From an uncultured Bacilli bacterium (lineage in GTDB: Bacteria; Bacillota_I; Bacilli_A; RF39; UBA660), in NCBI GenBank assembly GCA_944332735.1, contig CALVKP010000114.1:1-35876 (forward strand): 35,876 nt of DNA. Reading direction: 5' to 3'. Positions 1-21,750 of the stretch are shown one piece after another (the first letter of the stretch is position 1; each line of letters starts with the position of its first letter). The position numbers and the translations under genes were made by a program. The notes below the pieces were generated by a model. It searched no databases. It was given only the letters and a program-made list of their open reading frames with translations, and was not told the DNA's origin.

Positions 1-71
1 CGTTGATCATTGTTTATTTTGTTTCTCCTTGATCATTGTTTATTTAGTTTCTCGTGTATCATTGTTTATTT

Positions 72-87
72 AGTTTCACGTGGAACA
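72..87. other. parS: parS-like site 1
   Basis: AGTTTCACGTGGAACA, 15 of 16 identical to the Bacillus parS site read on this strand; only the first base differs. The central palindrome CACGTG is intact. Confidence 0.75.
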
Positions 88-97
88 TTGTTTATTT

Positions 98-113
98 AGT
101 TTCACGTGGAACA
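98..113. other. parS: parS-like site 2
   Basis: Same 16-mer as the sites at 72 and 124, exactly 26 bp from each neighbour, so the three sites lie about two and a half helical turns apart. Confidence 0.75.
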
Positions 114-123
114 TTGTTTATTT

Positions 124-139
124 AGTTTCACGTGGAACA
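124..139. other. parS: parS-like site 3
   Basis: Third identical 16-mer (AGTTTCACGTGGAACA). It is the last full site before the gyrA terminator region. Confidence 0.75.
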
Positions 140-144
140 TTGTT

Positions 145-7664: not shown

Positions 7665-9017
7665 TTATTTGATTTGAGTAATAATTTTTTGTATTTCCAT
7701 CTCTAAAATTGGGTTTTTTTTCATTTCATTTTTAATTTTTTCCACTGAATGCATTACGGTAGTATGATCTTTTCCACCAAATTCGATTCCTATCTTAGGT
7801 AGAGATTCTTCTAATACTGTTCTGCATATATACATAGCAATTTGACGTGGAACTGCAATTGCAGCTATTCTTTTTTTACTTTTTAAATCTTCCACTGTAA
7901 TATTATAATTACTCGCAACTAGCTGTTGTACTTGATCTATTTTGTTTTTTGCAACAACACTTTTTGCAAAATAATCTTTTAACGCTTCAATTGCTAAATC
8001 TAATGTAATATCTGATCCATTCATCATTGTTGCGTAAGCTACCACACGCGTAATAGCACCTTCTAATTTTCGAATATCACTTGTACAATTACTAGCTATG
8101 TATTCTTTTACTTCTTTAGGAAAAGCATTGGACATAACCTGACCTTCTAATTTTTTATCAATAATATCCATTCTTAATTTAAAATCAGGTGGCAAAATAT
8201 CTATTGTAAGCCCCCAGTTAAATCTTGTACGTAATCTATCTTCTAATAATTTTAAATCATCCGGTGAGCGATCAGAAGAAATAATAATTTGTTTATTATT
8301 ACCATATAAATCATTAAAAGTGTTGAAAAATTCTTGTTGTGTTTGATTAGCATTTCCTAAATATTGAATATCATCAATCATTAATACATCAATATCACGA
8401 TATTTTCTTTTAAAGATATCAACGCTATCGAAATTATTTCCGTCTTTATTCTTTTTATTAATTCCAATAAAATCAGAGACAAATTTTTCACTTGTTACAT
8501 ATAAAACTCTTTTTTTACTATTTTTAATAATATAATTTCCAATTGCATGCATCAAATGTGTTTTACCTAAACCACTATTTCCATATATAAATAAAGGATT
8601 ATACATAAATCCAGGTTTTTCTGCAACAGCAAGAGAAGTTGCTTTAGCAAATTTATTACTTGATCCAACAATGAAGTTATCAAATGTATATAAAGGATTT
8701 AAATTTGTTTCATATTCATTAATAGAAGGAACTCCAACATTATCTGTATTTATTTCAATATTTTTCTCTATTTCTTCATTTGTTACATATTCAAATTGAA
8801 AATTAGTTCCCGTAATTTCTGCAAAAGTTTCTTGAATTAAGTCATTATAATTTTCTTTTAAATGTTTTTTATGAACATGCATTGGAACTAATACAGTAGC
8901 GTGATTTTCTTTTAGTTCAATTAACTCTGTTTCCATAAACCATGTTTCAAAAAGCATCGGTGATATATTTTCTTTCATTTTCTCTAAAAAAGTTTTCCAC
9001 AATGTTTTGTTATCCAT
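7665..9017 (-). CDS. dnaA: chromosomal replication initiator DnaA
   Basis: DnaA is an AAA+ ATPase that binds DnaA boxes and melts the origin. Domain I (LWKTFLEKMKENISPMLFETW) is at the N terminus. Domain III has Walker A GNSGLGKTHLMHAIGNY and Walker B VLMIDDIQYL, plus sensor and arginine-finger segments. Domain IV carries the DNA-binding signature GGKDHTTVMHSVEKIK. The linker (domain II) is short. Length is 450 residues. An upstream in-frame ATG at 9042-9044 lacks a ribosome site; ATG at 9015-9017 follows GAGGTGG, ten bases away, and gives MDNKTLW. No clean sigma-A promoter was recognised upstream, where DnaA boxes start. Confidence 0.97.
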   Translation of the reverse strand: MDNKTLWKTFLEKMKENISPMLFETWFMETELIELKENHATVLVPMHVHKKHLKENYNDLIQETFAEITGTNFQFEYVTNEEIEKNIEINTDNVGVPSINEYETNLNPLYTFDNFIVGSSNKFAKATSLAVAEKPGFMYNPLFIYGNSGLGKTHLMHAIGNYIIKNSKKRVLYVTSEKFVSDFIGINKKNKDGNNFDSVDIFKRKYRDIDVLMIDDIQYLGNANQTQQEFFNTFNDLYGNNKQIIISSDRSPDDLKLLEDRLRTRFNWGLTIDILPPDFKLRMDIIDKKLEGQVMSNAFPKEVKEYIASNCTSDIRKLEGAITRVVAYATMMNGSDITLDLAIEALKDYFAKSVVAKNKIDQVQQLVASNYNITVEDLKSKKRIAAIAVPRQIAMYICRTVLEESLPKIGIEFGGKDHTTVMHSVEKIKNEMKKNPILEMEIQKIITQIK

Positions 9018-9169
9018 AGAAAAAATACCACCTCGATTTCTCATTAACTACCAATATTCTACATTATTTTTAATGAAAATACTAGTAAAATCAATAAAAA
9101 ATGTGGAAAAACAGAAACACACATACTTTTCCACACATTAAAATAATAAAAAACAATAAAAAAACATAG

Positions 9170-9191
9170 TTATCCACAAAAATGTGGATAA
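9170..9191. other. divergent pair of perfect DnaA boxes
   Basis: TTATCCACA on plus (9170-9178) and its reverse complement at 9183-9191, separated by 4 bp. This is the only pair of exact consensus boxes seen in the window and probably the core of DnaA assembly. Confidence 0.85.
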
Positions 9192-9297
9192 AAAAGTTAA
9201 AAAGAATTAACAACGTGAAAAATTTTTCCACAATTAAGTGTAAAAAGCTGGGAAATATTTAAAACAAAAGAAAAAAAAGTAGAAAAACATGTTAATA

Positions 9298-9314
9298 AAT
9301 CGAATTTTGTCGAA
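9298..9314 (+). promoter_or_regulatory. tandem Spo0A-like boxes in oriC
   Basis: AATCGAA (9298) and TGTCGAA (9308) start 10 bp apart, with the direct repeat TCGAAT at 9300 and 9310. The downstream box is the exact 0A-box heptamer in the context TTTTGTCGAATA. Head-to-tail boxes 10 bp apart are the known arrangement for Spo0A dimers at abrB. The site lies between DnaA boxes. Confidence 0.45.
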
Positions 9315-9400
9315 TAAGATAATTTTTAAATTGTGGATATAATAAAGTAACGGTAGTTTTCCACACATAAATCCAATTATTAAAAAAAATTATTTTTTGT

Positions 9401-9429
9401 TTGACAAAACAACGATATATATATATAAT
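9401..9429 (+). promoter_or_regulatory. consensus sigma-A promoter of rpmH
   Basis: TTGACA (9401-9406), exactly 17 nt, TATAAT (9424-9429). It is a perfect consensus promoter at the right edge of oriC. The DnaA-like box at 9357-9365 lies upstream of it. Confidence 0.9.
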
Positions 9430-9472
9430 TGATAAAGCAAAGCGAAAAAGAAAAAACCAGGAGGTGTATAAA

Positions 9473-9607
9473 ATGAGAGGAAATCACGGAACTACGTTTC
9501 AACCAAATAATAGAAAAAGAAAGAAAAAACACGGTTTCTTCGCTAGAGTGAAAACAAATGTTATGACTCGTAGAAGAAAAAAAGGTCGTAAAGTTTTATC
9601 TCACTAA
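9473..9607 (+). CDS. rpmH: 50S ribosomal protein L34
   Basis: L34 is a short basic protein of the large subunit that binds 23S rRNA. The 44-residue product has the core [18 protein letters not shown] and the tail [12 protein letters not shown]. The start follows AGGAGGTG at 9459-9466. Compared with the usual MKRTFQP start, it begins [11 protein letters not shown], four residues longer. The middle ([11 protein letters not shown]) is about four residues shorter than the usual KNGRKVLARRRRKG region, so total length is unchanged. A longer reading from 9401 would overlap the promoter and is rejected. Confidence 0.95.
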
Positions 9608-9637
9608 AAATCGCAAGAATCATTTTGTGATTTTTTT
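9606..9637 (+). terminator. rpmH terminator or attenuator
   Basis: aaaaatcgcaa pairs with ttgtgattttt with one G-U wobble around an 8-base loop and is followed by further T. It overlaps the rpmH stop. Readthrough to rnpA is possible, since no strong promoter was seen before rnpA. Confidence 0.6.
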
Positions 9638-9660
9638 ATTATGTGAATTCCCATTTATAT

Positions 9661-9684
9661 CTTTATTTTTTTTAAAAAATAAAG
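9661..9684. repeat. AT-only inverted repeat upstream of rnpA
   Basis: ctttattttt and aaaaataaag flank a 4-base centre. It is a weak hairpin with only one G-C pair at the base. A TAAAAT hexamer at 9685-9690 just after it is a poor promoter candidate for rnpA. Confidence 0.3.
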
Positions 9685-9726
9685 TAAAATAGATTTAATT
9701 AGTGAGTTTTGAAAGATGGTGAAAAA

Positions 9727-16278: not shown

Positions 16279-16324
16279 AATAGAAAAGAATAGTAAATAA
16301 TAGATAAAAAGGGGCATGAGAGTT

Positions 16325-18514
16325 ATGAATGAAGCTGGACAAGTAAGAAAATTACCAATTGATGATGTTCTTCCAAATAGATTCCAACCTCGAATTAAGT
16401 TTTCGGAGTCGGAAGTTTTGGCGTTGGCAGATTCTATTAAAAATCACGGAGTGATTCAACCAATCTTAGTACGTCCAATCGGTGATAAATATGAAATAAT
16501 AGCCGGAGAAAGAAGATATAAAGCGAGTGTTATGGCAGGATTAAAAGAAATACCAGCAATTGTAAGACAGCTTGATGATAAACAAAGTGCAGAATTAGCA
16601 CTGATAGAAAATGTCCAAAGAAAAGATTTAACACCAATTGAAGAAGCCCTATCTTATAAAAAAATATTAGATATGGGATATTTGACCCAAGAACAATTGG
16701 CTTTAAAATTAGGTAAAAAGCAATCAACGATTGCTAATAAATTAAGACTTTTAAATTTAGATGAAGATGTTCAAAACGCTTTGTTATATGAGAAAATATC
16801 AGAAAGACATGCTCGTTCATTATTAAAATTAGAACAAAAAGATCAAAAAGAGATGTTAAAAAGAATTATTAATGAACGATTGACAGTAAGACAAACAGAT
16901 TTGGAAATTCAAAAGCTGTTGGCAGAAAAGGAAAAACAAAATCAAAATCAACAGACAAATATTTTAAATGAAGAAATCGAAATATTAGATTTTCCAGAGG
17001 AAGAGACGGTGAAAAATATGGGAGATAATTCAATAAATCAATCAGCACAGTACAACATACCAAATAATACAATTCAAAATGATATGCCTGAAACAACTGT
17101 ATCTAATCCAGCAGTATCAACAAATCAGCAAGTAGTTACTCCAGAATCTAATATAACTTCATCAACTCAAGTTTCAACACCAGTAAATCCAGGATTTATG
17201 GATGTAGATAAAATTGTTGAAACAGCTCAAGATATTAATCGTCCAACACAAAAAGATAAAAAAACAATTGAAGATTTACTAAAACCAGATGAACAAATGT
17301 TAAAAATGGAAGAAGCAGAGAAACAAGCCCAAGAACAAAAAGAAGAACCAGAACCAACATTAAAACCAGGTAAATTCTTTAATTTAGCAGATTTAGAAGA
17401 AGCAGAAAAAGAAGAAAATCAAAATGGATATATAGAAAACTTAGATCAAGCCCAGGCAAATATGGATTTTGGAGTAAAACCAACTCCAGCACCAACAAAT
17501 GGATTTGATTTTGATAAATTCTTTAACCCAAATGAATTTGAAAAAACATTAGAACCTACAAATAATTCTACAAATTTGGGAGAAGAAAATACACAAAAAG
17601 AAGTAGTTAACCAAAATTTAGTATCACCAGAAGTTTCTGTTCAACAACCGAAAGAAGAACATCAGACTGTAGAATTACAACGCAATAACGAACCTACTTC
17701 TAATACGATAAATCAAAATATAACTCCAGAAAGTAATATGGTAGATCAACAATTAGAAGAACAACAACCGAAAGAAGCAGCTCCATCTGTTATGCCTATG
17801 GAATCTATACCTCAACAAGAAATAGCAACAGTTACGAAAGAAGAATTGGAGACACCTGAATCTTTACAGGAACAAATAAAGGTACCTTCTGAAATAGAAC
17901 AAGAAAAAGAACAACAACCTTCATCAATTCCAACTATGAGTGAAGAAGAATTTTTAAAATCAATCCCAGATAGTGATCTGCCACTTTCTTCTCTAAATAC
18001 ATCACCAAAAGAAGAAGTAAAAACACCAGAAATTCATTCAGAAGACTTAGAACCACAATATGATTTTACAAATTTAAATGATTTGGTTTCTAATACATCT
18101 TTAAATCAATCAACACAAGGAGACATAACGCCAACACAAAGTAAAATAAATGAAGAAAATAATGTATCTCCACTTTTAGAACCTGAAATTCCACCAATTG
18201 AACCAGTGATTACAGATCAAGCAAATTCATTCTTGTTTGAACCTGATGTGACAGAAGAAACGATTTCACCAGAAAGTGAAAATGAATTAACTTCTATTTC
18301 ATTACCTGCGCAAGAATCTATTGTACAACCCAATACTGTTTCAAATGAAGAAGATTTGAAAGAACCTGTAAAAGTATTTGATGTTCAAAAAGTAAGTTTA
18401 GAAGCTAAAAATTTTGCACAGGAATTACAGAATAAAGGATATCAAGTAAGAATTGAAGAATATGATTTTGAAGATTTATATCAAGTAGTATTTAAAGTTA
18501 GAAAAGATGTTTAA
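16325..18514 (+). CDS. noc: Noc/ParB-family protein with a giant disordered linker
   Basis: Its place after rsmG is that of Bacillus noc. Residues 1-200 are a ParB-type CTPase and DNA-binding unit: NRFQPR (18-23), GERRYKA (61-67), ENVQRKDLTPIEEA (95-108) and a helix-turn-helix with LGKKQSTIANKLRLLNL (129-145). At the four positions known to separate Noc from ParB specificity it has Q133, K139, N144 and R161, three of which are Noc-type. Residues about 205-683 are a Gln/Glu/Pro/Asn/Thr-rich linker with no recognisable fold. The last 46 residues (AKNFAQELQNKGYQVRIEEY onward) resemble the Noc C-terminal dimerisation domain. The total of 729 residues is over twice the family norm (about 280-300). 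There is no N-terminal amphipathic membrane helix. ATG at 16325 is preferred; 16316 is a possible earlier start. No parA follows. Confidence 0.85.
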   Translation: MNEAGQVRKLPIDDVLPNRFQPRIKFSESEVLALADSIKNHGVIQPILVRPIGDKYEIIAGERRYKASVMAGLKEIPAIVRQLDDKQSAELALIENVQRKDLTPIEEALSYKKILDMGYLTQEQLALKLGKKQSTIANKLRLLNLDEDVQNALLYEKISERHARSLLKLEQKDQKEMLKRIINERLTVRQTDLEIQKLLAEKEKQNQNQQTNILNEEIEILDFPEEETVKNMGDNSINQSAQYNIPNNTIQNDMPETTVSNPAVSTNQQVVTPESNITSSTQVSTPVNPGFMDVDKIVETAQDINRPTQKDKKTIEDLLKPDEQMLKMEEAEKQAQEQKEEPEPTLKPGKFFNLADLEEAEKEENQNGYIENLDQAQANMDFGVKPTPAPTNGFDFDKFFNPNEFEKTLEPTNNSTNLGEENTQKEVVNQNLVSPEVSVQQPKEEHQTVELQRNNEPTSNTINQNITPESNMVDQQLEEQQPKEAAPSVMPMESIPQQEIATVTKEELETPESLQEQIKVPSEIEQEKEQQPSSIPTMSEEEFLKSIPDSDLPLSSLNTSPKEEVKTPEIHSEDLEPQYDFTNLNDLVSNTSLNQSTQGDITPTQSKINEENNVSPLLEPEIPPIEPVITDQANSFLFEPDVTEETISPESENELTSISLPAQESIVQPNTVSNEEDLKEPVKVFDVQKVSLEAKNFAQELQNKGYQVRIEEYDFEDLYQVVFKVRKDV

Positions 18515-20841: not shown

Positions 20842-21750
20842 ATGAAAAGGTTTATTGTAATGGGAGTCATTCTAGTATTATTTTTATTCACTCCATTTCA
20901 AGTTTTAGGAAAAGAATATGATGTTATTTGTTTTGTAGGTGATTCTAGAACTGTTGGATTAAAAAATAGTATTGAAAGTTCTTCCAAATATGAATTTGTT
21001 GCAAAAGGTAGTATGGGGTACAAATGGTTTGCAGAAACTGGTGTAAAGAAGTTACGTGAACATTTAGATAAAAATTCTAAAGGCGCAGTTGTCTATAATT
21101 TTGGTGTAAATGATTTAGGTCCTAAAGGAGAAACAAATGTATATAAATATATTTCTCTTTATAAACAATTAGAAAAAGAATATCCAGATACTGATTTTTA
21201 TTATATGACAGTAAATCCAGTTCAAAATCATCAAAGTATATCTAATAGTACAATAGAACACTTTAATTCTATCGTAGAAGATAATTTTCCTAATCAAATA
21301 GTTGATACATATTCTAATATTGATTTTCAATTTTCTGACTCAGCACACTATTTACCAGATACTTATCGAGATATATTAGAATATACAGAAGAAGTATTAG
21401 AGAATAAAGTTGGAAAAATTAAGGAATATCATAAAAAACCTTTAATGACAAAATTAAATCCAGATGCTGTAGGATGTAAATTATTTGGTGATAATTTATT
21501 GAGTTTATTAGCTGATATATATCATTGGATTAGAGGAGCCGCAGTCGCTGCAGTTGTGATTCTAGGAATTTTGGATTTTATTAAAGCAGTTGTTGCAAAC
21601 CAAGAAGAAATGGTAAAAAAGGCAGGTTCAACATTTATAAAAAGAATTTTGTTACTTGCAATTTTGATTATGTTACCAGATTTAATAGATTTTGTTTTAG
21701 CACTTATTTTTGGAAAATCAGAAGCAGGAAATTGTTTAGAAAAATTTTAA
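20842..21750 (+). CDS. SGNH-hydrolase-like secreted domain fused to a two-helix pilin-like membrane tail
   Basis: A signal or anchor helix (1-23) leads into an SGNH/GDSL-type fold: the nucleophile block FVGDSRTVG (31-39, S35), an FGVND block (87-91, N90) and the D166-x-x-H169 pair in SDSAHY. SGNH enzymes are esterases or O-acyl-group hydrolases; the substrate is unknown, though cell-wall polymers are plausible for an exported one. From residue 205 the sequence changes to a small module with C212, a helix at 231-252, a KK-rich turn (EEMVKKAGSTFIKR), a helix at 268-290 and C298. This resembles TrbC/VirB2-like two-helix proteins common in Firmicutes. I recognise both halves only at fold-pattern level. 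Confidence 0.7.
   Translation: MKRFIVMGVILVLFLFTPFQVLGKEYDVICFVGDSRTVGLKNSIESSSKYEFVAKGSMGYKWFAETGVKKLREHLDKNSKGAVVYNFGVNDLGPKGETNVYKYISLYKQLEKEYPDTDFYYMTVNPVQNHQSISNSTIEHFNSIVEDNFPNQIVDTYSNIDFQFSDSAHYLPDTYRDILEYTEEVLENKVGKIKEYHKKPLMTKLNPDAVGCKLFGDNLLSLLADIYHWIRGAAVAAVVILGILDFIKAVVANQEEMVKKAGSTFIKRILLLAILIMLPDLIDFVLALIFGKSEAGNCLEKF

Follow-up and report, generated by a model that had tools for sequence, protein, structure and literature searches.

What the linker of a Noc/ParB clamp does when it grows from a short connection to several hundred residues is the question raised by one open reading frame of an uncultured Bacilli bacterium. The ParB linker between the DNA-binding and C-terminal domains is described as invariably about 20 residues long and lysine-rich, and it forms the compartment that holds DNA; the significance of its length and charge is unknown (PMC8367383). 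The original prediction, made from the letters of the window (the whole stretch of 35,876 nucleotides analysed here), described a Noc/ParB protein whose two ends are preserved on either side of a huge disordered linker with recurring short islands.

The Noc orthologue and its place near the origin

The frame at 16325-18514 (plus strand) translates into 729 residues with no internal stop. Formally the open reading frame opens at 16316, and ATG 16325 was preferred as the start because the spacing of a ribosome-binding-like AAAAAGGGGC run suits it better: the run lies about 10 nt before ATG 16325 and nearly abuts ATG 16316. The protein is divided as follows.

16325..16942, plus strand: Noc core, aa 1-206, ParB_N CTPase domain and HTH (Pfam, NCBIfam and PDB matches, motif positions, pLDDT)
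16943..18370, plus strand: acidic disordered linker, about aa 207-682 (composition and disorder test, pLDDT)
18371..18511, plus strand: Noc C-terminal dimerisation domain, aa 683-729 (hhalign, AlphaFold)

Residues 9-201 matched ParB_N and HTH_ParB in Pfam, and the top PDB matches were the Noc proteins of Geobacillus and Bacillus. The top NCBIfam match was nucleoid_noc (TIGR04285) at 274 bits, which is under the curated cut-off of 315 bits, a value that none of the family genomes sampled passed. The core carries the C-motif GERRYKA (aa 61-67) and ENVQRKDLTPIEEA (aa 95-108), and its recognition residues, QSTIANK (aa 133-139) together with ERHAR, are of the NBS type and not of the parS type, following the specificity residues (Q, K, R) defined in PMC7383237. 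Among the relatives, Q..K..R is present in 150 of the 152 readable family members and the C-motif, as GERRxxA, in 156/160, from which CTP binding is predicted.

At the other end of the protein, the alignment of family C-termini matched that of 29 Nocs belonging to other Bacilli families with an hhalign probability of 97 (E 2e-11), and did not match the Spo0J C-terminal domain (probability 0.2). The last 46 residues, for which a failure to match had been named as a possible objection, are thus of the Noc type by hhalign. In the full-length AlphaFold model most of the core has a pLDDT of about 76-98, and the C-terminal domain one of 92-96. Modelled alone, the latter reaches 88 and folds as helix-strand-strand (H8-24, E29-35, E40-46). 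A Foldseek search with this model found no PDB structure that significantly resembles the 50-residue fold, and the assignment of the domain therefore rests on sequence profiles. The domain matches and the disorder tests agree with the predicted design of two preserved Noc ends and a huge disordered stretch between them.

From gene order, CTPase motifs, NBS-specificity residues and C-terminal domain, all read from sequence, we identify the open reading frame as a Noc orthologue; this is the name used here, and a role in nucleoid occlusion is putative. The recognition residues and the C-terminal domain rule out a Spo0J identity, and contig C12 of this genome carries a separate soj-spo0J pair. 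Across the family Spo0J likewise keeps its normal size (about 292-306 aa), with no growth comparable to that of Noc. One ParB-like match in another genome (G010:C8:21719-22489) contains three stop codons and is possibly a decaying spo0J or a mobile-element ParB.

The gene order in the window is yidC-jag-mnmE-mnmG-rsmG-noc, with gyrA-gyrB-recF-dnaN-dnaA on the other side, which by NCBIfam matches is the canonical origin order; rsmG adjoins the Noc match in 77 of 80 relatives. Two features mark the origin side.

7665..9044, minus strand: dnaA (NCBIfam DnaA)
1..144, no strand: parS tandem array beyond gyrA, at the contig edge (tandem repeat finder, pattern scan)

The replication origin is predicted to lie in 9045-9700, which would place noc, in the canonical setting of this gene, about 7 kb from oriC. 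The parS array is made of 5.5 copies of a 26-bp unit with three intact AGTTTCACGTGGAACA sites at 72, 98 and 124, and its upstream units have decayed. At the end of contig C120 of the same genome assembly (G000; about 13950-14011 of L212) there is a 26-bp parS unit identical to that of the window. Since the two contig ends share this unit, the assembly very probably breaks inside the parS array, with C120 as the likely neighbour. On the far side of noc, two genes downstream and preceded by a GH25 lysozyme that has a bacterial Ig-like domain, a 302-aa open reading frame (20842-21750, plus strand) had no Pfam or NCBIfam match.

The linker and its conserved motifs

The window linker has 478 residues, close to the 480 or so disordered residues expected, and a net charge of -69. 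It consists of 15% E, 10% N, 9% P and 9% Q with 0.4% R, and its aromatic residues are 2.9% F and 0.6% Y, W being absent. It is predicted to be disordered by charge-hydropathy, and its pLDDT is mostly 35-50 in the AlphaFold model, in which a helical stretch at aa 291-340 (pLDDT 55-80) and a short helix at 540-545 stand out. The protein does not follow the canonical rule of the ParB/Noc clamp, namely about 20 lysine-rich residues between DBD and CTD.

This design is not confined to one protein. All 5 genomes of the genus carry an enlarged Noc (728-773 aa), as does nearly every family genome having a Noc, and the design is found in all 160 full family proteins extracted (316-768 aa, median 462). 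A frameshift or fusion artefact, the other objection that had been foreseen, is ruled out by this family-wide occurrence. The linkers span 69-521 aa; 158/158 are net negative and 150/158 are disordered by charge-hydropathy. Outside the family, Nocs from other Bacilli families (n = 29) have a linker of 10-24 aa, mostly of positive charge. The relatives are MAGs named as uncultured Bacilli, Tenericutes or Mycoplasmatota, and many come from the gut or the rumen; Candidatus Pelethosoma and Candidatus Faecisoma are among them, and the family includes no laboratory model organism. Most of the family genomes are fragmented. We take the family group to be the GTDB order RF39. Small genomes and a thin wall have been predicted for RF39 (PMC10868615).

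A Noc of another Bacilli family (L099 in G284) shares the Noc core, the C-terminal domain and a long acidic low-complexity stretch. There, however, the stretch is a tail of about 380 aa that follows the C-terminal domain and ends in GFWNLFK, whereas in the window's family it precedes that domain, and the tail is apparently an independent gain.

Conservation in the linker was evaluated by an unbiased scan, in which each 16-residue window of the linker was compared with 153 linkers of other genera and with shuffled controls. The peaks were confined to aa 277-308, 341-364 and, lower, 365-384. Pattern counts in the 158 family linkers and in shuffles gave the following motifs, and the last two lines are islands of the original prediction.

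16973..17005, plus strand: motif m1, EIEILDFPEEE, aa 217-227, weakly conserved (regex in 14/158 linkers against 1.1 in shuffles)
17051..17083, plus strand: motif m2, YNIPNNTIQND, aa 243-253, weakly conserved (regex in 17/158 against 0.1)
17186..17290, plus strand: motif m3, NPGFMDVDKIVETAQDIN...TIEDLLKPD, aa 288-322 (84/158 against 0.6; profile mean z 3.4)
17363..17410, plus strand: motif m4, KPGKFFNLADLEEAEK, aa 347-362 (83/158 against 9.2; profile mean z 1.9)
17426..17473, plus strand: motif m5, GYIENLDQAQANMDFG, aa 368-383 (21/158 against 5.2; profile mean z 1.3)
17501..17551, plus strand: motif m6, GFDFDKFFNPNEFEKTL, aa 393-409 (9/158 against 2.4)
17942..17983, plus strand: island EEEFLKSIPDSDLP, aa 540-553 (family profile z about 0; genus-level only)
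18059..18091, plus strand: island YDFTNLNDLVS, aa 579-589 (family profile z about 0.5; genus-level only)

The most conserved element of the linker is m3 (NPGFMDVDKIVETAQDI...DLL), whose family form is NPGFMDVDKI-x3-AQDI...(D/E)xLL and for which AlphaFold predicts a short helix at 294-300. The family form of m4, the KFF motif, is [KR]FF[NST][FML]..(E/D). By pattern, m3 and m4 were detected in about half of the members, and the rare motifs m1, m2, m5 and m6 were seen in few genera; several of the motifs are missing from the shortest linkers (about 70-130 aa). The order is fixed, with m3 before KFF in 46/46 linkers having both.

The dN/dS values separate the motifs from their surroundings. For m3 the window gave 0.02 against L055, 0.01 against L056 and 0.13 against L057. 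Against L055 and L056, the core lies at 0.02-0.05 and the C-terminal domain at 0.05-0.14, and the longest drifting stretch, aa 405-530, reaches 0.54-1.17. Within the genus, m5 has 0.06-0.15 and m6 about 0-0.13. On the conservation of the motifs, and on the low dN/dS of m3 against the drifting rest, we take the motifs as functional elements and the remainder as spacer.

These results divide the four islands that had been picked out by eye. Two of them, KFFNLADLEEAE and DFDKFFN, fall within the series conserved across the family. The conservation of the other two ends with the genus: EEEFLKSIPDSDLP is 68-89% identical in three of four congeners and 28% in the fourth, and YDFTNLNDLVS has 23-69% identity in congeners. 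The dominant motif, m3, was absent from that list. The idea of repeated docking peptides survives in part, in that the elements are short, docking-like and under strong purifying selection; repeated copies of one peptide are ruled out, as the motifs are distinct and stand in a set order.

A profile search with m3 was also performed in 10 genomes. Noc was the sole match in 8 of them, a weak second match occurred in G097, and one genome had no match. In the window's own genome the profile matched Noc alone. As the profile matched essentially Noc alone in the genomes searched, m3 is regarded as a motif private to Noc. The same search yielded no partner protein bearing m3, that single weak match apart.

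Binding sites, parS and the Min system

The NBS consensus ATTTCCCGGGAAAT was scanned at no more than 1 mismatch together with a control pattern; matches with 2 mismatches were close to the control level and were excluded as evidence. Of the 145 family genomes, 128 have NBS, as a rule 1-8 each, with almost no control matches; the other 17 have none at this threshold. The window's own genome has one exact NBS, on C120 and 1.8 kb from the parS unit array there, and the window itself has none at up to 2 mismatches. In the window's genus the detected NBS lie at least 1.8 kb from the parS array and not within it.

For the position on the chromosome we used 13 contigs of at least 100 kb, picked because they carry both noc and NBS; they include the single-contig genome G193 and a 1.04-Mb contig of G097, two near-complete chromosomes. 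None of the 42 NBS on these contigs is more than 27 kb from noc; most lie on the gyrA side at a distance of 15-25 kb, and no chromosome-wide spread that spares the terminus was seen on them. A few genomes of the wider set depart from this: G018, for example, has distant NBS, and G025 has 23 NBS-like sites at up to 1 mismatch, far above the other family genomes scanned.

The sites also keep company with parS. Just beyond gyrA in one relative (G016:C6:755-1374, L209), parS and NBS alternate with a 62-bp period, an arrangement that we read from its sequence as a mixed ParB/Noc loading array. Similar mixtures occur in G193 and G117, and in G041 an NBS adjoins the parS cluster. In another set of 30 NBS loci, parS was present within about 1.5 kb at 7, against 0 for the control. 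NBS are mixed with or beside parS in at least 11 genomes. In 24 of 80 relatives (L255-L321) an NBS sits 50-320 bp upstream of the noc match, with 0 matches to the control pattern in 1.22 Mb; this placement is suggestive of autoregulation or of loading of Noc at its own gene.

MinC was not found in 58 family genomes, with the B. subtilis and E. coli controls positive, and the Min system is therefore probably missing. Of the known site-selection factors, Noc may be the only one present in these genomes, which belong to a large group of gut bacteria.

What the linker may do

When compared with the Noc of Bacillus subtilis, Geobacillus and Staphylococcus aureus, the family has the same place after rsmG, the same ParB_N CTPase domain and HTH with NBS-specificity residues, the cognate NBS in the genome and a homologous C-terminal dimerisation domain. 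The differences are the lack of an N-terminal amphipathic helix, the acidic linker and the number of sites: the usual 1-8 NBS near the origin contrast with about 70 over most of the B. subtilis chromosome (PMC4331003) and with 41 Noc loci in S. aureus, nearly all in the origin half (PMC5540599). ParB/Spo0J at parS shares with the family Noc the CTPase clamp fold and an origin-proximal, centromere-like array, which in some genera is common to both, but it is a distinct protein, with parS-type reading residues and a C-terminal domain of its own. According to one survey the ParB fold has frequently acquired additional domains and Noc retains the canonical architecture, and the survey passages searched do not report a long disordered Noc linker (PMC12704722). 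In the open-access literature searched no characterised Noc of the present design is described, as had been stated at the outset. The family-wide spread, the lost N-terminal helix, the uniform acidity and the origin-proximal NBS beside parS are additions to the original prediction, and the last of them bears most on function.

The explanation to which we give roughly even credence is that the Noc orthologue of a genome-reduced Bacilli family has been turned into a clamp that sits near the origin and bears long docking arms. The clamp would load at the predicted NBS near the origin, close with CTP and slide nearby. The two flexible linkers of a dimer would then expose m3 above all, and also m4 and the others, to a putative partner, so that a component of the division, membrane or segregation machinery would be recruited to the newly replicated origin. 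The acidic charge should hold the arms off the clamped DNA. Judged from its sequence pattern, the most likely use of the arm is such a coupling of the origin to one of these machineries. Recruitment is favoured over lumen widening and condensation because the motifs are conserved while the linker length and the remaining sequence are not; the latter two may add to recruitment but leave the motifs unexplained.

There is a precedent for a contact of this kind. The Nocs of S. aureus and B. subtilis bind the same sites and do not replace each other, for which species-specific protein contacts were proposed (PMC5540599); by analogy, the linker arms could be such contacts in this family. The division or replication contact of Noc is still missing according to the same paper, and the conserved motifs offer a handle on it. 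The question of linker length and charge also becomes directly testable, since in about 140 genera both have changed within an otherwise conserved clamp, which amounts to a natural experiment.

A more far-reaching form of the docking-arm explanation we advance tentatively, as a possibility worth stating. Here Noc would no longer be a chromosome-wide occlusion factor but a second centromere clamp. It would load together with ParB at the origin, on a common array in which NBS and parS are sometimes interleaved, and its long motif-bearing arms would serve as a kinetochore-like platform that connects the origin with a partner in division, membrane or segregation in cells lacking Min. The neighbourhood of NBS and parS suggests that one centromere can serve both Noc and ParB.

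Another explanation centres on the membrane. In B. subtilis the N-terminal amphipathic helix of Noc is required for membrane binding and function (PMC4331003, PMC8429893); the helix depends on F5, R7, F8 and F9, and inverting its positive charges abolished membrane localisation (PMC4331003). In all 160 family members just 9-22 residues precede the core motif PNRFQPR, and with so few the N-terminal membrane helix is absent. As no member has room for it, the membrane-targeting sequence could have shifted from the N-terminus into the linker as m4, with the arm tethering the origin to the membrane. K-F-F resembles the R7-F8-F9 part of the B. subtilis helix, m4 is enriched about nine-fold over shuffles, and several Nocs of other Bacilli start with peptides such as MFNLF, MNIF and MGLFDFLG. 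However, the residues after m4 are acidic (typical members have a net charge of -3 to -4 there) and the helical moment of m4 is modest, Nocs of other Bacilli that lack the N-terminal helix show no growth of the linker, and the most conserved motif is m3 and not m4. We hold this relocation to be unlikely; charge and helical moment make it a minority hypothesis.

Alternatively, the linker could be a spacer that enlarges the DNA compartment of the clamp, either to slide past obstacles or to hold extra strands. The DBD-CTD linker does form that compartment in ParB (PMC8367383), and its length and charge are both transformed here, but a range of 69-521 aa within one family argues against a tuned lumen, and a spacer has no need of a motif with a dN/dS of about 0.02. 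We doubt this account strongly. It is less probable still that the linker serves as an acidic low-complexity scaffold for condensation or steric crowding at the origin, with the motifs as stickers. Such a scaffold would fit a disordered, acidic stretch with several short aromatic motifs that becomes multivalent through dimerisation and spreading; it fits poorly with so few aromatic residues and with essentially one copy of each motif in fixed order, without tandem stickers. Neutral growth with little function in a genome-reduced lineage, which the near-neutral bulk of the linker (dN/dS 0.5-1.2 at aa 405-530) and its very variable length would allow, is hardly credible given the ordered series of conserved motifs with m3 at a dN/dS of about 0.02, the net negative charge of every one of the 158 linkers and the ungrown Spo0J of the same genomes.
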